A stretch of 38,241 nucleotides of DNA, taken from positions 1-38,241 of the forward strand of contig JANYEI010000126.1 of assembly GCA_025363205.1 (NCBI GenBank), given 5' to 3'. Source of the stretch: Frigoribacterium sp. GTDB taxonomy: Bacteria > Actinomycetota > Actinomycetes > Actinomycetales > Microbacteriaceae. Within the stretch, counting starts at the first letter, position 1, and every line of letters starts with the position of its first letter. Shown one piece after another: positions 6,983-38,062 of the stretch. Both the position numbers and the translations under genes were made by a program. The notes below the pieces were generated by a model. That model did no database searches and was not told where the DNA came from. It worked only from the letters and a program-made list of their open reading frames with translations.

Positions 6983-8179
6983 ATGGCGTTTTCACTCGCA
7001 GTCGTCGGGGCGGGACAGTTCGCAGGACAGTTCGCAACCCTCTTCGATCACCATCCGGGAGTCGGCTCGGTTTTTGTCACCGACCTCATTCCTGACCGGG
7101 CCAAAACCCTCGCGTCGCTGGCTCGACTCGGTGGCACCTTCGATAGCTTCGAACACGCATTGGTATCGCCGCTTGTCGACGCTGTAGCGATCTTTACTCA
7201 ACGCTGGACGCACGGCCCCCTTGTCCTCAAAGCCCTCCGTGCAGGCAAGCACGTCTATTCCGCCGTCCCGATGGCCATGTCGGAGGACGAAATCCGCGAG
7301 ATCCTCGAGGTCGTCAAGGAGACCGGACTTACCTACATGATGGGTGAGACGAGCTACTACAACCCCGCGACGGTATTCGCACGAAGAAAAATAGCCGAGG
7401 GTGCGTTCGGCCGGCTCTTTTATGCGGAGGGCGACTATGTGCACGATATGGATCTGGGCTTTTATGAGGCTTACCAATACAGTGGCGGAGCTCAGTGGAA
7501 GCGCACAGCGAGCTTTCCCCCCCTGCATTACCCGACGCATTCCATCGGCGGTGTGCTCGGAGCATGGGATACGAGGGCCACTTCCGTCAGCGCGATCGGT
7601 GTCGCAGACCATCGGGGGGACGGAGTTTTTGACAAGGCCACCAGCCAGTTCGGCAATGATTTCTCGAACGCAACAGCCCTCTTCGAACTGTCCGGCGGAT
7701 CAATGAGAATTAACGAGTTTCGCCGAGTCGGGTACCCCTCTCACTTGCGAGAATCACGATTTCGCTATTTCGGTACGGAGGGAAGCTTTGAAGAAGTGGC
7801 TACTGCGGCGTATTGGTACACGAAGGACGGGGCTGAGGACGTCTCGGCCCAGGTCGAAACCTCAGCGTCTCTCCTGCCCGATGATCCCTCGCTCAAGAAC
7901 ATCGCCCCTGCACTGCGCGATGCGTTCGTTTCGGGATACGCGCGTGTGCACGACATAGACCGGATCCCGCCCGAACTTCGCGCGCTACCCAACGGCCACG
8001 AGGGCAGCCACCACTTTCTCGTCGATGACTTCGTCCGCGCCGTCAATGATTCCCGCGTTCCTCCGGTTAACGCCTGGACCGCTGCACGGTTCACTTTGCC
8101 TGGCATAATCGCCCATCAGTCGGCTCAGCGTGATGGGGAGCGTCTTCCCATTCCAGACCTCGGCAACGGACCAGCCTGA
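6983..8179 (+). CDS. Gfo/Idh/MocA-family NAD(P)-dependent oxidoreductase
   Basis: A 398-residue predicted cytoplasmic sugar or polyol dehydrogenase. The N-terminal Rossmann fold is clear (VVGAGQFAGQF, residues 7-17), followed by the usual alternation up to about residue 125 and then the C-terminal alpha/beta substrate domain (FPPLHYPTHSIGG near residue 180). The catalytic EKP motif expected near residues 94-96 reads AVP in GKHVYSAVPMAM, so the usual lysine is missing. Start ATG 6983 has AGGAAA upstream; an earlier in-frame TTG would add 11 residues. It diverges from the sugar ABC operon and is followed by the LacI regulator 95 bases on. It probably acts on the sugar brought in by that transporter; the exact substrate is unknown. 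Confidence 0.88.
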   Translation: MAFSLAVVGAGQFAGQFATLFDHHPGVGSVFVTDLIPDRAKTLASLARLGGTFDSFEHALVSPLVDAVAIFTQRWTHGPLVLKALRAGKHVYSAVPMAMSEDEIREILEVVKETGLTYMMGETSYYNPATVFARRKIAEGAFGRLFYAEGDYVHDMDLGFYEAYQYSGGAQWKRTASFPPLHYPTHSIGGVLGAWDTRATSVSAIGVADHRGDGVFDKATSQFGNDFSNATALFELSGGSMRINEFRRVGYPSHLRESRFRYFGTEGSFEEVATAAYWYTKDGAEDVSAQVETSASLLPDDPSLKNIAPALRDAFVSGYARVHDIDRIPPELRALPNGHEGSHHFLVDDFVRAVNDSRVPPVNAWTAARFTLPGIIAHQSAQRDGERLPIPDLGNGPA

Positions 8180-8274
8180 CGATTCACAGACACAGTTGTC
8201 ACTATTCTTCCTAGATATCCCCGCACGACCTCATCGCCAGCGAAAAGTCGCGCCTGGCTCGAAAGGAGCCACCG

Positions 8275-12914: not shown

Positions 12915-13844
12915 TCAGCTCGAGATGTCCTTGCGGCGGAACCACAAGACCGCCACAGTGGTGGAGAGCAGGGCGTAGATCAGGGCCGACAGCACGGAGT
13001 CGGCGATCGGGGCGTAGTCGATGCGGGCGTTGAAGAACTCGCGGAAGGCATCCGTGTTCCACGTGGGGAGGTAGTGGCGCACCTCCCCCAGATCCGGGAT
13101 GCGCTCGAGGATGCTTGACAGGATGGAGGTGATCACCACCCCTCCCGCCGCCGCGAGTGGGGCCTCCGCTAGAACGGTGAACATCGTTCCGAGTGCCGCC
13201 GCCCATGACAGGTGGAGGCAGATGATCGCGACCGCCGCCAGGATTCGCAGGAGGGATTCGCCCATCCCGAGCTGCGGTCCGACGGGGATCTGGATGCCGC
13301 CACCACCGTAGGAGATCGTTCCAACCAGCAGTGACATGCCGGTGAGCAGCAGGATGCCGACCACGAGAACGGTCCAAGACACCAGCACCTTCACGAACAG
13401 CAGTCGGGTGCGCCCCACGGGAATCGTGAGCAGGTACTTCAGCGTGGATCTCGACGCCTCGCCAGCGATCATGTCTCCGAAAAGCAGTGCCACGACGAGT
13501 GTCAGCAGGAATCCGGCGGTGATCACGAGGATGAACGCCGTGAACGTCGTGCCGCTTGCCTGCGCAAACGCGGCGAGATCGGTCCTTCCGGCCGCGGGAC
13601 CCCCGGCTCCACCGATGAGGAACGCGAGGCGCACAACCACCGGAAGCAGAGCGAAGATGATGAGCACGACCCGGACGCGCCACTGGCTGATCTGCCGGGC
13701 AAATTCGATCCGGATCGGCATAGTGCGGCGAACCGAGGCGGCGGTCCCGGGGATCGGGCCGGGGCTCCACGGAGATGACGTGCCAGCCGAGGTCGCCGCC
13801 GAAGCGGGAGCCGGGATCGAGGCCGGCACATCTGTCGTGCTCAT
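12915..13844 (-). CDS. ABC-2-type transporter permease
   Basis: A 309-residue membrane protein forming the channel of an ABC-2-type exporter. The N-terminal 50 residues are Ala/Pro/Ser-rich and probably cytoplasmic. Six hydrophobic segments follow, starting at about residue 59. The segment after the second helix (LFGDMIAGEASRSTLKYLLT) is typical of ABC-2 permeases working with a NatA-like ATPase, and the third region carries PVGRTRLLFVKVL. Its ATG overlaps the stop of the upstream fusion gene by one base (TAATG), so the two products are translationally coupled and surely form one complex. The cargo is unknown. Confidence 0.88.
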   Translation of the reverse strand: MSTTDVPASIPAPASAATSAGTSSPWSPGPIPGTAASVRRTMPIRIEFARQISQWRVRVVLIIFALLPVVVRLAFLIGGAGGPAAGRTDLAAFAQASGTTFTAFILVITAGFLLTLVVALLFGDMIAGEASRSTLKYLLTIPVGRTRLLFVKVLVSWTVLVVGILLLTGMSLLVGTISYGGGGIQIPVGPQLGMGESLLRILAAVAIICLHLSWAAALGTMFTVLAEAPLAAAGGVVITSILSSILERIPDLGEVRHYLPTWNTDAFREFFNARIDYAPIADSVLSALIYALLSTTVAVLWFRRKDISS

Positions 13845-16600
13845 TAAATGATCCCTTCCGTGCCCACCATCTCGAGGAAGGTCTCCTCGAGGTGCCGCCC
13901 GCGGGTGACCGAGCGGATGCCGATCCCGTTCTCCGTGATCGCGGCCACGACGGCCTCCGGGCCGTTCCCCGCCGGCAGCACGCGGATGGTACCGGGGGCG
14001 GTCATGAGCGCCTCAGCGCCATCGAGTCGATGGACGGCGTGCAGGGCGGCCTCGACATCCGTCACCTCGATGGTGAGCTCGCTTGATTCTCCGGCGAGTT
14101 CTGCGACAGGTCCCGCGGCGAGCAGGCGGCCGCGGGCCATCACCACGACGTCGGAGCAGGTCTGTTCGACCTCGCCGAGGAGGTGCGACGACACGATCAC
14201 GGTGCGTCCGGTCTCGGCGTAACGGCGGAGCACCCCGCGCAGGGCGAAGATCTGGGGCGGGTCGAGTCCGTTGGTCGGCTCGTCGAGGATGAGAAGTTCT
14301 GGCATCCCGAGCATCGCCTGAGCGATGGCCAGGCGCTGTTTCATGCCCTGGCTGTAGCCGCCGACGCGTCGATTCACCGCCGAGCCGAGGTCGGCGATGT
14401 CCAGCGCCTCGGCCAGGCGCGCGTCCGCGCGAGGACGCCCCGACGCGGCCCAGAACAGCTGGAGATTGCGTCGGCCGGAGAGGTGGGGAAGGAAGCCCGG
14501 CCCTTCGATGAAGCAGCCGACCCTCGTCAGCACCCGGGATCCCGGGGAGACCTTCTCGCCGAAGATCTCGATCTCGCCTGCGTCGGGTCGAAGCAGTCCG
14601 GTGACCATACGGAGCGCGGTGGTCTTGCCCGCCCCGTTTGGGCCGAGAAGGCCGAGCACCTGGCCCTGCTGCACCGTGAATGAGAGGTCGTCCACCGCGC
14701 GGAACCCGGCGCCATAGGTCTTGGTGAGGCCACGGATCGCCAGCGGAGGCGCGTCATCCGGTCGCCCAGCTGGTGGCCCAGCGACTGGCCCTGGGTGATC
14801 CCGGCGTCGATCGGCGATCGCCGCGATCGCCGCGAGCATGAGGCCGAGCAAGAGAACCATCGGGATGCCGATGAGCGCCGCCGCCGACGGCGCACCGCCA
14901 CCGACGGCAGGGTCCGCTGAGGCAACCGTTGGCAAGGAGAGGGCGCCCTCGGTGTTCACGACGAAGGTCGCGGATGTAGCGGAGCCCTGGTAGCCCGCAT
15001 CCGTCGTACGCAGCGAGAGGGCGATTTTGTCGCCGCGCTCGAAGCGCCAGGTCGTTGCCGGCAGGGTCAACCGCACCCGGGTCGCCGAGCCGTCCGCGGG
15101 GAGGGAAACGCGCATCGGCGCGACACCACCACCGACCGCGATGTCAGAGTCTCCCGAGGAGACCCGCAGCTGGGCGAACAGCAGCACCTCGACCGGGGCA
15201 CCGGATCGCGAGGAATCACGCACCTCTCCGCGGAAGCGCGGCAGCCGTACGTCGACCGTCACGGTCGGGGAGCCGGCGAGCACAAACGGAGTGCTAATAG
15301 ATCCGGTGGCGAATTTCGCCTGTTGTGCGGGTTGCGCGATAGGACCGGCGATTCCGCTGCCGCTGCCCCCAGTGCCCCCGATGACCGAGTCGACCGCACC
15401 GATTCCGGGCAGCGACGAGATCGTCGCAGGCAGCCCTCCCGGGGGATTTACGACGATGCCGAAGCGACCATTCAGCGGCAGCGTTCTGAGGCTGCCACCA
15501 TCCAGTCCCGGATACCGGGCGGCGACGCGGGTCTCGGCGAATCCGCGGGCCGAGGTCGGCACTGTGAATGAGAAGGGTTCTGACGAAGCGTGTCGAGGGG
15601 ACCTGCCACGCAGGTGGGCGAAGAGCCACTTGTCTACGACGCCGTCCGTGCCGGCCGTCTGGCCTCCGTCGTGCCCCCCGGCGAACCAGGACACCGTTAC
15701 CGGTGCGCCCGCCGCGGTGATCGCGCGCTCGTTCGCGTCGGATTGGTCGAGTCCGAAGAGCGTGTCCTGCCGGCCCTGCAGAAGCAGTGTTGGCGCGGTC
15801 ATGCCTGAGAGCACCGAGGCGGGAGAGGATGCCTCGAGGAGCGTGCGATCCGCGGCATCGAGCTGTCCGCCACCGACGAGTTTCGTATACAGGGTGCAGA
15901 GCTCGGCGGTGAAGCGCCCGCAGGCTCCATAGAACGGCGATGCCGCTGCGCCGAAAAGCTGGGTCGCCCAGGCCTGCTTGAAGACGCCGGGCGCTGGCGC
16001 CGCGCCATCCGCTGCCGCCGACTGGGGCACAAGCGCTTGCGCGAGGTCATTCCAGGTGATGGCCGCGACGACCGTGACAATGCGCGGGTCTGTCGCGCCG
16101 AGAATGAGCGCGAGCGCGCCCCCGTAGGAGGCTCCGACGACGCCGATGACCGGGTCGCCGTCTCGCGTCTCGACCTCAGGGCGGCTGGCCAACACATCGA
16201 CAAGCCGTTTCGCGTCGGCGACCTCGTAGTCGAGGGAGTCGAGGGAGATCCGTCCGCCGGAACGACCGAATCCGCGTGCGGAGTACGCCATTACGACATA
16301 GCCCTCGCGGCGCATCCGCTCGGCATCTTTCGCGACTGAACGCTTGGATCCGCCGAATCCGTGGGCAAGAAGCACAGCCGGGGCGGGTCGGGATGTCGCT
16401 GGCAGGTACAGGTCGACGTCCAGGCTGATGGTCGCAGCAGATCCCGGTGCCGATGGCACGTCGACGCGAAAGGTCTCCGACGGTCCCGTTGTTTCAGCGG
16501 CGGATGCGGGGGATGCGGCGGATGCGGGGGCGACCAGAACTGCGAACATCACCACCGCGCCGAGTGCCATCCGCCAGCCGCGGCCGTGTGAGCGGCTCAT
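13844..16600 (-). CDS. secreted-type alpha/beta hydrolase fused to an ABC ATPase
   Basis: A 918-residue two-part protein. Residues 1-35 look like a signal peptide. Residues 40-330 are an X-Pro dipeptidyl-peptidase/CocE-type alpha/beta hydrolase with Ser158 in GASYG, Asp279 in GRQD and His310 in GGHDGG. Residues 340-550 resemble the CocE C-terminal jelly-roll. A single membrane helix (about 574-596) leads to a cytoplasmic ABC ATPase (620-918) with Walker A GPNGAGKT (653-660), signature YSQGM (749-753), Walker B LLILDEP (769-775) and H-loop His806. The topology therefore puts the hydrolase outside and the ATPase inside, joined by one helix. ATG 16600 is chosen because AAGGA precedes it; the earlier ATG 16642 would spoil the signal peptide. 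The coupled permease completes an exporter. Role inferred: processing or releasing a peptide or ester cargo as it is exported. Confidence 0.9.
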   Translation of the reverse strand: MSRSHGRGWRMALGAVVMFAVLVAPASAASPASAAETTGPSETFRVDVPSAPGSAATISLDVDLYLPATSRPAPAVLLAHGFGGSKRSVAKDAERMRREGYVVMAYSARGFGRSGGRISLDSLDYEVADAKRLVDVLASRPEVETRDGDPVIGVVGASYGGALALILGATDPRIVTVVAAITWNDLAQALVPQSAAADGAAPAPGVFKQAWATQLFGAAASPFYGACGRFTAELCTLYTKLVGGGQLDAADRTLLEASSPASVLSGMTAPTLLLQGRQDTLFGLDQSDANERAITAAGAPVTVSWFAGGHDGGQTAGTDGVVDKWLFAHLRGRSPRHASSEPFSFTVPTSARGFAETRVAARYPGLDGGSLRTLPLNGRFGIVVNPPGGLPATISSLPGIGAVDSVIGGTGGSGSGIAGPIAQPAQQAKFATGSISTPFVLAGSPTVTVDVRLPRFRGEVRDSSRSGAPVEVLLFAQLRVSSGDSDIAVGGGVAPMRVSLPADGSATRVRLTLPATTWRFERGDKIALSLRTTDAGYQGSATSATFVVNTEGALSLPTVASADPAVGGGAPSAAALIGIPMVLLLGLMLAAIAAIADRRRDHPGPVAGPPAGRPDDAPPLAIRGLTKTYGAGFRAVDDLSFTVQQGQVLGLLGPNGAGKTTALRMVTGLLRPDAGEIEIFGEKVSPGSRVLTRVGCFIEGPGFLPHLSGRRNLQLFWAASGRPRADARLAEALDIADLGSAVNRRVGGYSQGMKQRLAIAQAMLGMPELLILDEPTNGLDPPQIFALRGVLRRYAETGRTVIVSSHLLGEVEQTCSDVVVMARGRLLAAGPVAELAGESSELTIEVTDVEAALHAVHRLDGAEALMTAPGTIRVLPAGNGPEAVVAAITENGIGIRSVTRGRHLEETFLEMVGTEGII

Positions 16601-16673
16601 GGAATTGTCCTTCGAGTGACAGGGTGATGGAGGCACGAGCATACGTGGTCGGGCCGAAAACTCGCCTTTGCCC

Positions 16674-16712: not shown

Positions 16713-16818
16713 ACTGGCTGACCCACCTGTAAGAAAGCATTGAGAAGAAACTCGCCGCCGTGCACTACCGGCCGCAAGCCAACCCGAACCGGTTGGCCCG
16801 TTCAACCTGTCCTCATCA

Positions 16819-17702
16819 TGCGTGACCTGGACACACTTCGAGCTGGCAGCACGCGGGTATTCCCGGGAGAGGAAGAAGGCTCAGTCATAGATCGAATACG
16901 GGCTACTGACCGACCCGAAAGGATGCCCGGTCGAGGTGCGGGTAATGCCAGGAACACGACCGATCCGACTGCGTTTGAGCAGATCGCGATCGAGATGAAA
17001 TCGATGTTCGCAGTTGACGACACGGTCATGGTTGGGGACGGGGGCATCATCACCTCTGCCCGGATCTGTCAGCTGCGGGAGTTGGGCGGTCCCGGCTGGG
17101 TGACCGCGCTGCGCTCGAACTCGATCGCTGGGCTTGTCGCCGATGGGTCGGTGCAGCAGTTCCTGTTCGATGAGGCCGACCTGGGGGTTATCGCCGCCGC
17201 GGTGACCACAGGCAGGCTCACGGCGGGCGGGGTTCGCTTCGAGAAGATCCTCGGCCTTCACAACATGGCCAAACAATTGACCTTGCGCGTCGCGGACGGG
17301 CAGTTCGCCTTGGCCCAGAAGCAGACGACTATCGATGCCAAAATGCGGATTCGCGCTCACATGGTTATCTGCATGCTCGCCGCCTACCTCGTCTGGCACC
17401 TGAGGAACGAGTGGGCACCGCTGACCTTCACCTACGAGCACCAGCCAGATGCCGCCGTTCCGGTCGCGCCCGCAAAACGTTCGACCGCGCCGTACTCACA
17501 GCGTCAACCCGCACCGAAACGGATGGCGAACCCGTCCGCAGCTTCACCACGCTGCTCGAGCGTCTCGCGAAGCTGACCTGCAATGACATCCGCGATAGCA
17601 CCGACCCGCAGACCCCTACAATTCCGATTCTCGCGACCCCGACCACCATCCAACGCCGAGTATTCGAACTCATCAACTGCCCCATCCCGACCAGACTGAA
17701 GT
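16819..17702 (+). pseudogene. IS1634-family transposase remnant
   Basis: Fragments in order read FELAARGYSRERKK, then after a TAG codon IEYGLLTDPKGCPVEVRV, then in another frame NTTDPTAFEQIAIEMKSMF, VMVGDGGIITSARI and GWVTALRSNSIAGL. They are followed by a jump across the missing centre to VIAAAVTTGRL, then RIRAHMVICMLAAYLVWHLR and WAPLTFTYEHQP. A further frameshift gives TRTETDGEPVRSFTTLLERL and the family's ending TTIQRRVFELINCPIPTRLK near 17702. This is a DDE transposase of the IS1634/IS1549 kind with an internal deletion, at least two frameshifts and a stop. In the VGDRG motif around a catalytic Asp, Gly replaces Arg. It is dead and old. It separates the hydrolase-ABC genes from the SigK module. 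Confidence 0.85.
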
Positions 17703-17889: not shown

Positions 17890-18606
17890 TCAGCTCAGGA
17901 TGCCCTGCATCACCGAGGCGGGCTTTTGACCGGCGCCGGGATCGGTCGGCTGGTCGGAGACGCTGACATAGCGGTAGGTGCCGAGATCGACGCCGACCGG
18001 AATCTTGAATGATCCGGTCAGCCCGTCGAGCGTTCCCAGGCTCAGCGGGGCTGAAGACTCCGAAGACGTCAGCCAGACCTCGTGAACGTCGCTCAGGTGC
18101 GATGGCATCACGCTGGTGATGTGGACTACGCGGTCTCCGCTCGCCAGTATCTGCACGGTCGCGGTTCCGGATGCGCCCTCCCACGCAGGCAGCGGCTGCA
18201 GTCTCGCGATCGCAATGGTGCGCGGCGACTGGCTGGTTACAGCGGCGATTGAACCGATCACCCCAAAGAACACGACAAGAGCGGCCACGAGAAAAAATCG
18301 GATGACCCGTGCGCGCGGACGATGTCTTCGGCTCTCGAGACGTACCGGCGGGCCGGAGGCGACGAGTGGCGGGGTGGGCACTGCCGCGAAGCCGAGTTGG
18401 TTTGAAATGGACTGCCAGACCCGTTCGTCGGGCAGCAACAGGGCCACCTCGTTCATTGCACGTTTGGCGAATGCGGCTGTGAGTCTCAGTTCACGGAGTT
18501 GCTTGGCACACTCCGCACAGCCAAGCAGGTGGGTAAGGTCGGCATCTGTTGCGACTCCCTCACCCAGAGCGGTGAGGGCGAGCGTCTCGGGATCAGAGTG
18601 ATTCAC
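17890..18606 (-). CDS. anti-sigma factor, RskA-like
   Basis: A 238-residue single-pass membrane anti-sigma factor. The N-terminal cytoplasmic part carries a zinc-type anti-sigma motif HxxxCxxC (His26, Cys30, Cys33 in THLLGCAEC), which binds the sigma factor. A membrane helix spans about residues 101-123. The outer domain (130-238) is the RskA C-terminal fold (MPSHLSDVHEVWLTSSESSA, LGTLDGLTGSFKIPVGVDLG). The start overlaps the end of the sigma gene by 14 bases, the usual arrangement for a co-translated pair. In the characterised mycobacterial system RskA holds SigK at the membrane until it is cleaved. No truncation is seen. Confidence 0.92.
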   Translation of the reverse strand: MNHSDPETLALTALGEGVATDADLTHLLGCAECAKQLRELRLTAAFAKRAMNEVALLLPDERVWQSISNQLGFAAVPTPPLVASGPPVRLESRRHRPRARVIRFFLVAALVVFFGVIGSIAAVTSQSPRTIAIARLQPLPAWEGASGTATVQILASGDRVVHITSVMPSHLSDVHEVWLTSSESSAPLSLGTLDGLTGSFKIPVGVDLGTYRYVSVSDQPTDPGAGQKPASVMQGILS

Positions 18607-19165
18607 GGGACACCTCCAGATGGATGCGCATTCGGTCGAGACTACGTCGAATGTGACTTTTCACGGTACCTAGCGGAAGGCCGAGCCGCTCGGAGATCTG
18701 GGTGTGAGTGAGGTCGTCGTAGAAGGCGAGGCGCACCACCCGCTGGGCGTCAGGCTCGAGTCGGGCGATCTCGTCGGCGATCAAAAGCCTGTCAGCCAGG
18801 TCTATCTCTAGTCCGGCGTCGGCCAAAAAATCCGCCTTCGCCAGCTGCTCGTGCAACTGGCGGATGCGCTGGCGACCCTGGTGGGCGTCCGCGATAGCGT
18901 GACGGGTGATACCCACGAGCCAGCTGGCGAGGGGTGCCCGTGTCGGGTCATATCGAAGTCGTCCGTTCCATGCGTCGACGAAAACCTTCTGGGTCACGTC
19001 TTCTGCATCGGAAACGTTGTGAAGGGAACGGAACGCGAGGGTGTAAACGAGCGCGGACCAGCGATGATAAAGCTCCGCGAGCGCCGAGGGATCCCCCGCC
19101 GCGAAGGCGGCGATGATCGCTGCTTGTCCGTCGTCACTCGCAGACGTGCTCGAGATCGGGGTCAC
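18593..19165 (-). CDS. sigK: ECF RNA polymerase sigma factor, SigK-like
   Basis: A 190-residue group 4 sigma factor. Region 2 runs from about residue 15 to 85 (DPSALAELYHRWSALVYTLA, SDAEDVTQKVFVDAWNG). Region 4 lies from about 130 to 182 (LEPDAQRVVRLAFYDDLTHT, RLGLPLGTVKSHIRRSLDRM). I use GTG 19165, preceded by GAGGA at five bases. The pairing with an RskA-like anti-sigma factor immediately downstream supports SigK. The secreted DUF4397 gene upstream on the same strand is the likely target or operon mate. A CCATCC-N17-CGAGGA pattern just before the start resembles a SigK-type promoter. Confidence 0.9.
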   Translation of the reverse strand: MTPISSTSASDDGQAAIIAAFAAGDPSALAELYHRWSALVYTLAFRSLHNVSDAEDVTQKVFVDAWNGRLRYDPTRAPLASWLVGITRHAIADAHQGRQRIRQLHEQLAKADFLADAGLEIDLADRLLIADEIARLEPDAQRVVRLAFYDDLTHTQISERLGLPLGTVKSHIRRSLDRMRIHLEVSRESL

Positions 19166-19297: not shown

Positions 19298-19984
19298 CTA
19301 CCAGCGAAGCGGTACTGTCTGGACCGCGACGGCGAGAGTGCCATCTGTCGCACTGCCCCAGGCGTATACGATCGTGTCTTTACCCATCGGTACCGGCACG
19401 TTCGCCGGGCCGATCACCGGGGCGGTCGTTCCTGCGAGCGCAACTGCGAACGCATAGGTCGCCGATGGCAGGATCGCGATACTTTGGTGCGGATTCGTGA
19501 GGCCCCGCATGGCCGGGTTTCCGTTGACCAGGATGTCGACAGCCGGAGCCGCTGCGATGTGACGGACGATCACACGCCCGTCACCGTGCTTCACGGGAAG
19601 GGTTGTGTTCCTGAACAACGTCGCTGTCGGCACCCCGGCCGCGGTCAGGTGAGCCGCGATCGTATAGTTGCCCCGAGGCAGGAACGTGAGAGTTACCGGC
19701 CCGATCACCGGATGGGTGTCATCCGTCGCCGACGCCGCGGTAATCGAGACCGTATAGCGGCCCGGCTTCAGCGACAGCGGACCAGCGAAGCTTCCAGGCT
19801 GAAAGTTCGCGAGGACCTCCTTGTGATTGACGAACACGTTGACCGGTGTGTTCGGCACACCGTGGAATACCGAAACCTTCGCGTCCACGTGATGCAACCA
19901 GGTGGGGGAGGCCTGGGCTGGCGCCGCGAGACCGAGAGCAGCAATGACCCCGATCAGCGCACCAATGAATAGTTTCTTACGCAC
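19298..19984 (-). CDS. secreted DUF4397-domain protein
   Basis: A 228-residue exported protein. Residues 1-26 are a typical signal peptide (basic MRKK, hydrophobic core, APAQAS cleavage region). The mature protein is made of beta-rich DUF4397 units (AKVSVFHGVPNTPVNVFVNH; VDILVNGNPAMRGLTNPHQS). The start is GTG 19984 with AAGGAG well placed; the longer frame to 20170 has no signal peptide. DUF4397 proteins often sit beside SigK-type sigma genes in actinobacteria, comparable to the MPT70/MPT83 targets of mycobacterial SigK, so it is likely a cell-envelope protein controlled by the downstream sigma and anti-sigma pair. The biochemical function is unknown. Confidence 0.88.
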   Translation of the reverse strand: MRKKLFIGALIGVIAALGLAAPAQASPTWLHHVDAKVSVFHGVPNTPVNVFVNHKEVLANFQPGSFAGPLSLKPGRYTVSITAASATDDTHPVIGPVTLTFLPRGNYTIAAHLTAAGVPTATLFRNTTLPVKHGDGRVIVRHIAAAPAVDILVNGNPAMRGLTNPHQSIAILPSATYAFAVALAGTTAPVIGPANVPVPMGKDTIVYAWGSATDGTLAVAVQTVPLRW

Positions 19985-20644
19985 GTTTCTTCTCCTTGCG
20001 TTGGGGCAGGGGATTCTGCCCGTTATGAAGTACTTCCTTCGGGCAGCTCCATTTGGATGCAAGTAACGCACTAAACATTGTAAAAAGAGTGATCTTCGCA
20101 CTGACAGCCCGAGGTTACCTGCCCGGTAGGGGTCTGGTTTCGCTTCACCGTGCAGGGTCTGCAGTTGCAACCTAGGCGGCGATCATTTCGGGCACCAGCA
20201 TCGCCTCTTTGATTAAAACGGCTGCGTCGGTCGGTGGCTTCCCACTCGCACACTGCTCGACTAGTTCAGTCTTCCTCTGAGGGACGACTTGGGACTGCAG
20301 CCTCAAGCGCGCAGCCACGACTGGAGATCAGCGGGGGCGTGGCTTTGAGTATCTGGCAAACGCGTCCCTTTCGTGCCCCACCGAGCCGATTCAGAAGATG
20401 TTTGGAAAATCGTTCGACGGGCACCCATCTCGGAAAACAGGAGATGTCAAGGTGCCGGAGACGAATATCCCGTGCAAAACCGGCTGAGACCCCAACCATT
20501 CAGGTGTTCACCCGCACCCGTGTCGGCCGGCGGTCCAGCCCGTAGCCCCGGATCAGCAGCGGCGGCCGCAATACTGAGGTTTCTTCCACTGCCAGCCTAC
20601 GACAGACTGTAGTAGCGCCGTCGAAATCGCCCGAGGAGAACCCC
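19985..20644. other. 660-base divergent intergenic region
   Basis: It lies between the DUF4397 gene and the rightward reductase-amidase gene and should hold both promoters. On the minus strand GCATCC (20060-20055) is a weak SigK-like -35 candidate for the DUF4397 gene, without a convincing -10. Short frames on both strands (for example 20266-20499 minus, 20234-20545 plus) have no recognisable products. Nothing else is supported. Confidence 0.35.
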
Positions 20645-22738
20645 ATGAAGCTCACGATCATCGGCACCGGAGCAATTGGCTGCATCGTCGCAGCCCACCT
20701 CATTCGGAGCGGTCATGAGGTCTTGCTGTGCGACAGCGATGCTACACAGGTAGCTGCCATTAACGAATCAGGCCTCACTATCGAGGGCCCGATCGGCACG
20801 GTCACCGTGCAGGTTCGCGCAGTATCGCCAGACGACTTGCCGAAGACGCTCGGGGTGGTAGTCCTTACTGGCGCTGACCACTCCACGGCGGCAATCGCCG
20901 AGCTAGTAAGCGAGAGATTAGCCCCCGACGGATATCTGGTCTGTCTTAATCCCACACTGCACTCGGAACTTGTGACGACCGCCCTCGGTACCCAGCGAAT
21001 TGTCGCCGCGCTAGCCACAAATAACGCGGAACAGCTCAGTCCGGGGCGAATCCTTCAGAGAAGCACAGGGTCGCTGTTCGTGGGCGAAGTCGCGAGCACC
21101 GAGATCACTGGGCGGGTGGAGGCGCTCGCTGCCGCGCTGCCGTTTGGCCAGCCGACCCACAACATCCACGGCTACCTCTGGTCGTTTGCTGCCGAGCAGG
21201 CTGTGTTTCTTGCTGGCTCCACATCGGGCCTGTCGCCGGCAGCAACCCTCGAAGCGCTCGATTGGCGACCGTTTATGCGCGCGCTCGCCCGTGAAGTTCT
21301 CGAGCAGTGTCCGACCCGGGCGGAAGCATTCGACTACTTCAACCCGCTCGACCTCGACGCAACACTTAGCCGGATGAGAGACTCCCCTCGCACCATCGAG
21401 CCAGGAGCCGCGTTCATCCTCGGTGGTCTCGATGGCCCGCTAATGGTTCAGGTCAGCGAAATGGTGCGCTCCATCGAGCGCGGCGACCGCCCGAAAGACA
21501 TCACCAACCTCGATCTGCTGGCAACCTACGAGCGGACCGAACGGTTGGGGCGAGCGCTGAATGCTGTTGTTTCGATATTTCCCGCCCCGCACCGAGCTGC
21601 TGCCGGCCCGCTTCACGGCATTGCTATCGCGGTCAAAGATATTGTTGATATAGCGGGACATCCCCGAGGAAACGGTAACCCCGAGGCCATGCGGTCCCAG
21701 CCCGCGAGGAAGGATGCTCCCATTGTTGCTGCACTGCGCGCGGCCGGTGCGGACATTTTTGTTGCCACCTCACTTCTGGAATACGCCGCAGGGGCCCTGC
21801 ACCCTGACGTCCCGGAAGCGCTCAACCCGTTCGACCTGAACCGCACAGCAGGTGGTTCGAGCGGAGGGTCAGCGGCCCTGGTCGGCGTTGGTGCCTGCGA
21901 TGTCGCCTTGGGCACAGACACCGGTGGCTCGATCCGCATCCCGGCGCACTATTGCGCCACCGTCGGGTTCAAACCGAGCTACGGAGCGCTGTCGCTGGTC
22001 GGGGTTGAACCACTTGCGCCGAGCTTTGACCATGTTGGCTTCCTTGGGGCGACCGTCGCCGCGGTGCGTCAAGTCTTTACTGCAGTGCGCGGTGAAACGC
22101 CGAATCCCGAGGCCGGCCCGCTTCGCGTCGGCATCATTGCCGGTCAGCTTGATGTGGCAGTTCTTGACCCGGAGATCGCGGCCGCACTCCGGCATGCGAT
22201 TGCAACGCTGACTGAGTCCGGATGCTTGGTCATCGAACTCGATGGTTCGGCGCTCGACGCCGTCACCACGACCTTTGACGACATCTTGCTCTACGAGGCA
22301 TGGCAGGTTCATGGGGTGCGAATCGGCTCTGACCCGGATCACTATGGACCAGAAACTCTCCGGTTACTGCGTAGCGGCGCCGAGATTAGCGAGCAGCGTT
22401 ATGCCGATGCGCTCGCCCTACGGCTGAGGCTACTGCCTGCCGCCGCCGATATTTTCGCGCAAATCGACGTGCTTCTCACGCCGGCCGTTCCCTTTGTAGC
22501 TCCGGCAACCACACCTCCGATCGATACGCCGGAAGGCGCGGCCGAGGGACTCTTTTCCGGGGTTTTCAACGTCACCGGTGACCCGGCGATCGTGCTTCCC
22601 TGCGGTTGGAATTCCGCTGGATTACCGATCGGGCTGCAACTTGCGGCTCCGCTTGGGGCAGACCAAGCGTTGCTCTCAGCGGCTGCGTTTGTTGAAACTA
22701 TGCTGAAGTTTGAGAGACGGGTTGCAGCAGTGCACTAG
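20645..22738 (+). CDS. ketopantoate-reductase-like domain fused to amidase-signature domain
   Basis: One 697-residue frame holds two enzymes. Residues 1-290 follow the ketopantoate reductase (ApbA/PanE) plan: Rossmann motif GTGAIG (7-12), the nucleotide site around ADHSTAAIAE, and an all-alpha C-terminal half. The catalytic lysine usually found in the W-x-K segment is not evident (LWSFAAEQAVF), and the NG motif reads NP (102-103). Residues 310-697 are an amidase-signature enzyme with the Lys-cisSer-Ser triad Lys331 (AVKDIVD), Ser405 (GGSSGGS) and Ser429 (GTDTGGSIRIP). The ATG has GAGGAGAAC upstream. It converges on the rpiR-type gene two bases past its stop. The coupled activities suggest hydrolysis of an amide and redox conversion of the acid released, or the reverse. 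The natural substrate is unknown. I know of no described protein with this architecture. Confidence 0.88.
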   Translation: MKLTIIGTGAIGCIVAAHLIRSGHEVLLCDSDATQVAAINESGLTIEGPIGTVTVQVRAVSPDDLPKTLGVVVLTGADHSTAAIAELVSERLAPDGYLVCLNPTLHSELVTTALGTQRIVAALATNNAEQLSPGRILQRSTGSLFVGEVASTEITGRVEALAAALPFGQPTHNIHGYLWSFAAEQAVFLAGSTSGLSPAATLEALDWRPFMRALAREVLEQCPTRAEAFDYFNPLDLDATLSRMRDSPRTIEPGAAFILGGLDGPLMVQVSEMVRSIERGDRPKDITNLDLLATYERTERLGRALNAVVSIFPAPHRAAAGPLHGIAIAVKDIVDIAGHPRGNGNPEAMRSQPARKDAPIVAALRAAGADIFVATSLLEYAAGALHPDVPEALNPFDLNRTAGGSSGGSAALVGVGACDVALGTDTGGSIRIPAHYCATVGFKPSYGALSLVGVEPLAPSFDHVGFLGATVAAVRQVFTAVRGETPNPEAGPLRVGIIAGQLDVAVLDPEIAAALRHAIATLTESGCLVIELDGSALDAVTTTFDDILLYEAWQVHGVRIGSDPDHYGPETLRLLRSGAEISEQRYADALALRLRLLPAAADIFAQIDVLLTPAVPFVAPATTPPIDTPEGAAEGLFSGVFNVTGDPAIVLPCGWNSAGLPIGLQLAAPLGADQALLSAAAFVETMLKFERRVAAVH

Positions 22739-36880: not shown

Positions 36881-38062
36881 TCAGCCAAGAGAGATTCTCA
36901 CCAACTGACCGGTTGGACCGCGGCCGTTGCTGGCGGGCATGATGCTCCAGTTGGAGACGTACACCGCGCCGTTGTCGTAGGCGAACCCCGAAGGGAAGAA
37001 CAGTTGGCCGGTGCCGAGCGTGGTGCGGGCGCCGTTTGGAGCCACCTTGATGACCGCGCCGGAGGGGTCTGGCCCGAACATGCCGTTGACCTGGAACTCG
37101 GTGGCGTAAAAGTTACCTACGTCGTCGAATCCACAGCCTTGTATGCCGGTGAAGCCTGTCCATTTGACCGTCGCCGTGCCGTCAGCAATACGCCACACCC
37201 GGGCATTGCCCGGGGCGTAGGATCCGCCGAGGAGCTCGCCGACGTAGAGGGAACCGTCCGGAGCTTTCGTGACGCAGGTCGGCACCGCATCCGTGATCGA
37301 CCCGTCGGGGACGCGGAGGTAAGCCAGCGTCGAGACGTGCCCGTGGTTGTCGACCTGCGCAATAAGGTTTGCGCCGGCGTCGGCCACGTACTGAGTGCGG
37401 CCACTGGTGGTTATACCGTTGGGATTCGCGTCAGGGAACTGGTCAGGCTGCAGGTCCCGGTGGTCCCCGGCCCACGCGTAGTCGGCGTCCCCAGTGCTCG
37501 CCAGCACATTCCATGACCCGTCGTTGTTGATGGTGATAGTCCGGCCAAGCTGAGCCCTTGCAGCGTCGATGACTGACCCCGATGATGTGCTTGCCGGGAT
37601 GCGGGCGCTGCTGGAAGACACCTGACCGTAAATACGATTGCCTTGGGTGGAGACCGCGTCGAGGCCCTCAGCGGCAGTACCAGTGGGCGATGCCACCGAG
37701 ATCAGGCCGTCAACCACCTTGGTGAGCTGACCGTGTGCCAGTTTGCTGATACCGCTGGTGAGTCCGGCGCACTGGGGCCCCTCTGGCCCATTGCCCAGGC
37801 AGAGGCTCCCGCCGTGACCTCCTTCGGCAATGTAGAGCTCGCCGTGTGGGCCGAAGGCCAGGCCTCGAGGATTATCGAGGTTGCGGGCGACGACAGTCAC
37901 CGTTCCCGCGGCATCGACGGTCGTCTGAGCGGCATGGACCGGGCCAGCAGCCATGAGGCTGCCGGCTGCGAAGAGACCGATGGCGGCGGCGACGCCGACG
38001 TTGCGGCTGCGCGACTTGGAGCGGGTGGGGAACGTCGTGCCGTACTCTGTCCTGGTTTTCAT
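36881..38062 (-). CDS. secreted ScyD/ScyE-family beta-propeller-like protein
   Basis: A 393-residue exported protein. The N-terminus has a basic twenty-residue lead, a hydrophobic core (about 22-40) and a likely cleavage after HAA (residue 45). The mature part has repeated propeller-type blades: VARNLDNPRGLAFGPHGELY, GNRIYGQVSS, PNGITTSGRTQYVADAGANL, VTKAPDGSLYVGEL and FPSGFAYDNGAVYVSNWS. This is the ScyD/ScyE arrangement; in cyanobacteria members belong to the scytonemin cluster, but bacterial homologues are widespread and of unknown role, so no pigment function is implied. GAGGAG precedes ATG 38062. A near-consensus promoter lies about 125 bases upstream. It stands alone. Confidence 0.9.
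   Translation of the reverse strand: MKTRTEYGTTFPTRSKSRSRNVGVAAAIGLFAAGSLMAAGPVHAAQTTVDAAGTVTVVARNLDNPRGLAFGPHGELYIAEGGHGGSLCLGNGPEGPQCAGLTSGISKLAHGQLTKVVDGLISVASPTGTAAEGLDAVSTQGNRIYGQVSSSSARIPASTSSGSVIDAARAQLGRTITINNDGSWNVLASTGDADYAWAGDHRDLQPDQFPDANPNGITTSGRTQYVADAGANLIAQVDNHGHVSTLAYLRVPDGSITDAVPTCVTKAPDGSLYVGELLGGSYAPGNARVWRIADGTATVKWTGFTGIQGCGFDDVGNFYATEFQVNGMFGPDPSGAVIKVAPNGARTTLGTGQLFFPSGFAYDNGAVYVSNWSIMPASNGRGPTGQLVRISLG

Follow-up and report, generated by a model that had tools for sequence, protein, structure and literature searches.

In this study, we describe a fusion gene on the minus strand of contig JANYEI010000126.1 of Frigoribacterium sp. (Microbacteriaceae; assembly GCA_025363205.1), the whole 38,241-nucleotide stretch of which is referred to as the window. 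The product combines a signal peptide, a hydrolase of the CocE/S15 type, a single membrane helix and an ABC (ATP-binding cassette) ATPase in one polypeptide, and the gene that follows codes for a putative ABC-2 permease. The fusion is real, is carried by many actinobacteria and forms, together with the permease, a conserved two-gene unit that is widespread in Actinomycetota. We tentatively propose, with somewhat less than even confidence, that the products of the two genes make up a type V exporter with a tethered hydrolase, the latter acting on exported cargo at the outer face of the membrane. The unit consists of the following features:

13844-16600, minus strand: fusion gene for signal peptide, CocE/S15-type hydrolase, membrane helix and ABC ATPase, 918 amino acids
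16517-16600, minus strand: hydrophobic N-terminal stretch, residues 15-42, interpreted as a signal peptide (model helix 21-42; hydropathy of homologues)
14927-16480, minus strand: hydrolase domain including the jelly-roll, residues 55-572 (Pfam, fold match, conservation)
14804-14884, minus strand: single membrane helix ending in RRR, residues 587-613 (sequence, hydropathy, model)
13859-14743, minus strand: ABC ATPase with C-terminal regulatory domain, residues 634-928 (regulatory part 856-914)
12915-13844, minus strand: predicted ABC-2 (type V) permease, 309 amino acids (Pfam ABC2_membrane_4 above the cut-off, model, start/stop overlap)

The fusion lies in a single open frame on the minus strand, which extends from 13844 to 16642 and comprises 932 amino acids from its first ATG. 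Because a Shine-Dalgarno-like AAGGAC directly precedes the ATG at 16600, we prefer this start, which had also been chosen in an earlier sequence-only reading of this DNA, over the one at 16642; residue numbers count from 16642, that is, along the 932-amino-acid frame, and not from the preferred ATG. Peptidase_S15 (residues 72-211) and ABC_tran (residues 651-791) both match above the curated Pfam cut-offs. An AlphaFold2 model of the whole chain, based on a 35-row alignment, has a mean predicted local distance difference test score (pLDDT) of 83.5 and a predicted template modelling score (pTM) of 0.65, and is laid out as an N-terminal helix (21-42), the hydrolase with its jelly-roll (approximately 55-572), a second helix (587-613) and the ATPase (634-928). 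Pfam, the model and the sequence therefore bear out the sequence-only reading, which had placed a complete ABC ATPase behind a signal peptide, a hydrolase with its triad and one membrane helix, all in one frame. The one-base overlap with the permease gene that it had noted is found at the junction TAATG, in which the stop codon TAA of the fusion shares an A with the ATG of the permease. An artefact or a frame error as the origin of the fusion is ruled out by the identical gene order in more than 100 loci.

A profile scan of genome contigs yielded 347 relatives, the best 80 of which were taken for close reading and, with three further loci and the window, make up a set of 84 loci. All of these best 80 of 347 contain the hydrolase, and 79 continue in frame into ABC ATPase sequence; the contig of L034 ends before the ATPase, and in L078 and L096 the ATPase is cut by the contig end. 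The catalytic Ser, Asp and His are intact in 84/84 loci, and the same is true for the Walker A Lys (83/83) and the Walker B Glu (81/81) where the sequence is present. In a set of 127 fused loci, which includes the window and whose members are not all independent (L077 and L136, for example, whose contigs are equally long, stem from a genome reached twice), D293, H324 and K673 are intact without exception (127/127), S172 is intact in 126, the exception being L164, and Walker B, the signature Ser and the H-loop are intact in each of the 125 loci having that region. A survey of this kind had been suggested as a check of the fusion; loss of either active site in most homologues, which would have spoken against the sequence-only reading, was not found, and judged by these alignments both sites are under constraint in the same chains. 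L164 is the only fused locus seen with a split hydrolase, which could be due to a sequencing error, decay or a real separation. The permease follows the fusion in 122 of the 127 loci, with overlapping stop and start codons in 108 of these 122; in the other five (L068, L078, L096, L106 and L175), the sequence ends at or within approximately 250 bases of the end of the fusion, hence the lack of a permease call. Five more fused loci, which belong to the second of the tree sets described below, all have the permease. As the same gene order recurs in the 127 loci and in these five, it is not due to chance.

The genome surveys covered Actinomycetota, and other phyla were covered by the best 80 matches of the contig scan. 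At E <= 1e-20, the hydrolase profile finds matches, standalone relatives included, in 179 of 394 genomes of the window's class. With a threshold of E <= 1e-60, it has matches in 24 of 296 genomes across the phylum, among them fused copies from outside the class, and in 49 of 61 genomes of the family f37, where 48 copies have a frame of at least 880 amino acids and one is cut short; all seven of the 48 that were read further are fused. The corresponding counts are 11 of 61 for the family f44, with genome sizes of 0.9-2.2 Mb, and 4 of 150 for the window's own family, three of these copies being full length and read as fused. The long frames in the class, f37 and f44 surveys were checked for the ATPase in part. 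Within the window's genus, the unit occurs in 5 of the 13 genomes, and in one of these 5 a contig end truncates it. The places fetched as likely fusions are all fused and accompanied by the permease (29/29; all 20 of a first set and 9 of the 20 of a second set, to which the split L164 also belongs), and the unit is present in genomes of only 1.3-1.4 Mb (G083, G118 and G336).

The hydrolase is predicted to be located outside and the ATPase inside the cell, as the sequence-only reading had assumed. According to a simple hydropathy scan of the homologues, rather than a dedicated topology program, a hydrophobic N-terminal stretch is present in 82 of 84 proteins (the misses being L039 and L100), and a hydrophobic helix precedes the ATPase in all 83 homologues having that region. 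If this helix runs from the outside to the inside, a higher net charge is expected after it than before it, and this was found in 67 of 83 cases (L034, lacking the region, was not counted). In addition, Cys 241 and Cys 249 are both present in 125 of 127 fused and in 12 of 12 standalone proteins, conserved as a pair as a disulfide would be, which is in line with an extracytoplasmic position of the domain. Lipobox-like matches occur in 8 of the 127 fused loci and are hence not general. The most convincing one by eye is that of L150 (lineage f51; about 8130-8240, minus strand), where the fusion begins with a lipoprotein-like signal, LGAC, which might give the outer domain a lipid anchor in addition.

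The ATPase contains a Walker A motif GPNGAGKT (K673), the signature YSQGM, a Walker B motif LDEP (E788) and an H-loop histidine, H820. Its C-terminal part (residues 856-914) is modelled as two helices and four strands, the make-up given for the ABCA1-type regulatory domain in section 10 of PMC11466899. The best PDB sequence matches of the ATPase are ABCA4, ABCA3, ABCA7 and ABCA1, followed by NosF. No curated NCBIfam family claims it; the nearest models are DrrA and lantibiotic-protection ATPases, all below their cut-offs. For the best of them, DrrA, the score is 184.4 bits and the curated cut-off 312.45, so that the fusion ATPase is not assigned to the DrrA-type drug exporters. The permease, modelled with a pLDDT of 87.4, has NosY as its best fold match (Z 17.9, 228 residues, 3.4 A) and also matches ABCG2 (Z 16.8, 246 residues, 4.4 A), and in a profile search of PDB sequences NosY was the sole, weak match (E 0.0077). 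Permease and ATPase thus match NosY/NosF, ABCG2 and ABCA structures, and the permease is predicted to adopt the type V (ABC-2) fold.

We propose that the two gene products form a type V exporter, probably with two copies each of the fusion chain and the permease chain. Secreted and tethered through one helix to its own ATPase, the hydrolase would be positioned above the permease opening on the outer side. The pump might move or flip an ester- or amide-bearing, probably amphipathic molecule, which the hydrolase would cleave on arrival, so that export would be made one-way or an active product would be released. Export and cleavage might thus be physically linked, as the sequence-only reading had suggested. 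The main rival is an energised hydrolase, for which ATP-driven motion would gate or extract a lipid or envelope substrate while nothing is transported, comparable to NosD on NosFY or to FtsEX, which drives cell-wall hydrolases. That NosY is the only PDB profile match and best fold match of the permease, and that NosF ranks directly behind the ABCA proteins among the PDB sequence matches of the ATPase, would suit such a mechanism, since the fused hydrolase would take the place of NosD in the NosDFY complex; furthermore, FtsX is reported in PMC7761784 to bind and activate RipC. On the other hand, the permease model is nearly as close to a true exporter, ABCG2, as it is to NosY, and no FtsEX-type fold (type VII, with an FtsX-like four-helix permease) is among the 50 permease matches listed, although this excludes nothing. 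We consider an energised hydrolase unlikely, yet worth weighing against an exporter with a tethered hydrolase.

The triad of the hydrolase consists of S172 (GASYGG, a Ser motif of the type G-x-S-Y-x-G), D293 and H324. A Pfam match to PepX_C, the C-terminal jelly-roll, is seen in 33 of the 35 members of the fused alignment; in the window protein there is no such Pfam match, but residues 49-575 of the model can be aligned with CocE. Judged by the fold of the model, the nearest solved relative is a lipase, PaL (8yzn; Z 31.7, 439 residues, 3.1 A), followed by two enzymes that share a Z of 25.9, cocaine esterase (7f65; 450 residues, 3.1 A) and X-Pro dipeptidyl peptidase (6nff; 448 residues, 3.0 A). 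These S15 enzymes resemble the fusion in the hydrolase and the jelly-roll, with identities of 15-20% over 439-454 aligned residues. None of them is known to carry a membrane helix and an ATPase. The label "CocE-type hydrolase" of the sequence-only reading is correct as a statement on fold and domain, given the Peptidase_S15 match and the fold matches to CocE, PaL and X-Pro peptidase; fold and domain give no substrate. One could imagine that the hydrolase serves scavenging, freeing a small product from an ester or peptide outside the cell that is then taken up by the ABC pair. Among the S15 members are cocaine esterases, with which bacteria can grow on cocaine as a carbon source (PMC11878206), and some carriers of the unit have genomes of 1-2 Mb. 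Nevertheless, section 10 of PMC11466899 describes type V transporters as exporters, and the two-gene unit encodes no binding protein, and we regard import as very improbable compared with an exporter that carries its own hydrolase.

Standalone actinobacterial relatives, such as L031 and L165, have the same hydrolase domain, with triad and Cys pair conserved in 12 of 12, and lack the ATPase in the chain as well as such a permease alongside. In the stretches fetched around them (12 and 15 proteins in two sets), no permease of this type was found; in L167, L171, L202 and L205, the stretch does contain an ABC ATPase frame at another place, with no match to the permease profile. Two unrooted trees of the hydrolase domain were calculated from hand-chosen rows, one with 60 rows (48 fused, 12 standalone) and one with 68 rows (43 fused, 25 standalone). 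In each, one branch splits fused from standalone proteins, with Shimodaira-Hasegawa-like approximate likelihood ratio test (SH-aLRT) values of 100 and 99, respectively, and no fused row is placed among the standalone rows, which supports a single change between the two forms. With a midpoint root, used for drawing only, the standalone proteins are nested within the fused ones, beside fused copies from outside the class, and this rooting would imply one loss of the ATPase and not one fusion. That the covalent link has been kept across the phylum speaks against simple tethering, in which a membrane-held esterase or peptidase would be expressed together with a pump that deals with the same class of toxic or signalling compounds, for instance in efflux combined with detoxification, and would not be mechanically coupled to it; co-expression alone needs no covalent link. 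Simple tethering would agree with the linker after the membrane helix, as residues 611-626 are modelled with a pLDDT below 50 and close coupling is not required, and with DrrA and lantibiotic-protection ATPases being the nearest NCBIfam models. Taking both sides together, we think it improbable and prefer an exporter in which the hydrolase acts on the cargo.

Several observations weigh against the latter proposal. The term "exporter", already used in the sequence-only reading, is reasonable in view of the modelled type V fold of the permease, but outward transport itself is an assumption, because the nearest permease matches belong to NosDFY, which is not known to move a substrate right across the membrane. 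All nine permease matches at a Foldseek E <= 0.001 are chains of NosDFY entries. At L164 (4248-8277, minus strand), the hydrolase is split over two frames, with ATPase and permease in frame. Most genomes of the window's family lack the gene, which is hence dispensable there. None of the flanking genes that could be named gives a hint of the cargo. Finally, as the trees are unrooted, a single loss of the ATPase explains them as well as a single fusion does.

Three known systems are instructive for comparison. The peptidase of peptidase-containing ABC transporters (PCATs) is a cytoplasmic C39 domain that shares its chain with the membrane domain, and NosD is a separate extracytoplasmic protein that is not a hydrolase. 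In the unit described here, an S15 alpha/beta hydrolase, predicted to be outside, stands in place of C39 and the permease is encoded by a separate gene; in common with PCATs (e.g. PCAT1, PMC6959990) is the combination of a hydrolytic domain and an ATPase in one machine for processing and export. NosDFY (7o0y and others) comprises the nearest solved relatives of the permease and some of the nearest of the ATPase, whereas the outer domain of the fusion is an alpha/beta hydrolase and not a NosD-type partner. The wall teichoic acid exporter TagGH of B. subtilis is likewise of type V and has an ATPase chain with one membrane helix and an extracellular domain, but the order is ATPase, helix, outer domain, and the outer domain is SH3b-like and not an enzyme (PMC11466899, section 10). 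One might speculate that the fusion represents an ABC machine of a new class, which could be called an inside-out PCAT, with a single cycle of the ATPase passing a molecule directly to a hydrolase fused to the motor across the membrane, although we consider this doubtful. The only annotated copy seen, from Tsukamurella, is named "alpha/beta fold hydrolase", with an "ABC transporter permease" beside it, and the ATPase is hidden because the annotation reads only as a hydrolase. Among the open-access literature matches listed, there is no paper on such a fusion, in agreement with the earlier statement that the function of such fusions is not established; the architecture may be recorded elsewhere. 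In PMC11878206, a recent classification of hydrolases, section 2.9 deals with domains added to alpha/beta hydrolases and does not name an ABC fusion.

The window copy was probably acquired by transfer. Its operon has a G+C content of 0.681, compared with 0.602 for the rest of the window, and directly upstream of the fusion lies a feature that is not part of the machine:

16740-17576, plus strand: degenerate IS1634-type transposase remnant (tblastn)

This remnant has tblastn matches to plasmid records, several of them annotated as IS1634 family transposase, and no Pfam match. In the trees, the Microbacteriaceae copies pair with Nocardiaceae copies and not with those of their own order, with support values of 91 and 90, both below the 95 mark. 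Beyond the remnant, positions 17890-19165 (minus strand) encode an extracytoplasmic function (ECF) sigma factor and an RskA-type anti-sigma factor, with a DUF4397 protein upstream at 19298-20170, possibly a stress regulon beside the acquired unit. The sigma/anti-sigma pair was not recognised by eye among the 25 largest neighbour clusters of the homologous loci, and in the window the insertion sequence remnant separates it from the unit. Most of these clusters are unnamed; those nameable by eye are UvrB-like, CoaE-like, TerC-like and universal stress proteins, and look like housekeeping synteny in Mycobacteriales and Pseudonocardiales. In 14 other loci, the two-gene unit has different surroundings, and at L154 an esterase-like gene and a DUF305 gene are found nearby. 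Elsewhere in the window, a 697-amino-acid frame at 20645-22738 (plus strand) joins a ketopantoate-reductase-like N-terminus to an amidase, which is either an unusual fusion or a doubtful frame, and a ScyD/ScyE family protein is encoded at 36881-38062 (minus strand; above the curated cut-off). A role of the unit as a defence system was rejected, as the PADLOC matches are partial and lie within the ATPase only.

Taken together, we describe a chain in which a predicted outer hydrolase and an ABC ATPase are conserved side by side in many actinobacteria. As both conserved sites are located in one chain, the coupling of hydrolysis to transport can be addressed with two point mutants of a single gene. 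If our proposal is true, the fusion would be a vectorial enzyme, that is, a pump whose motor chain bears an enzyme acting on the far side of the membrane.

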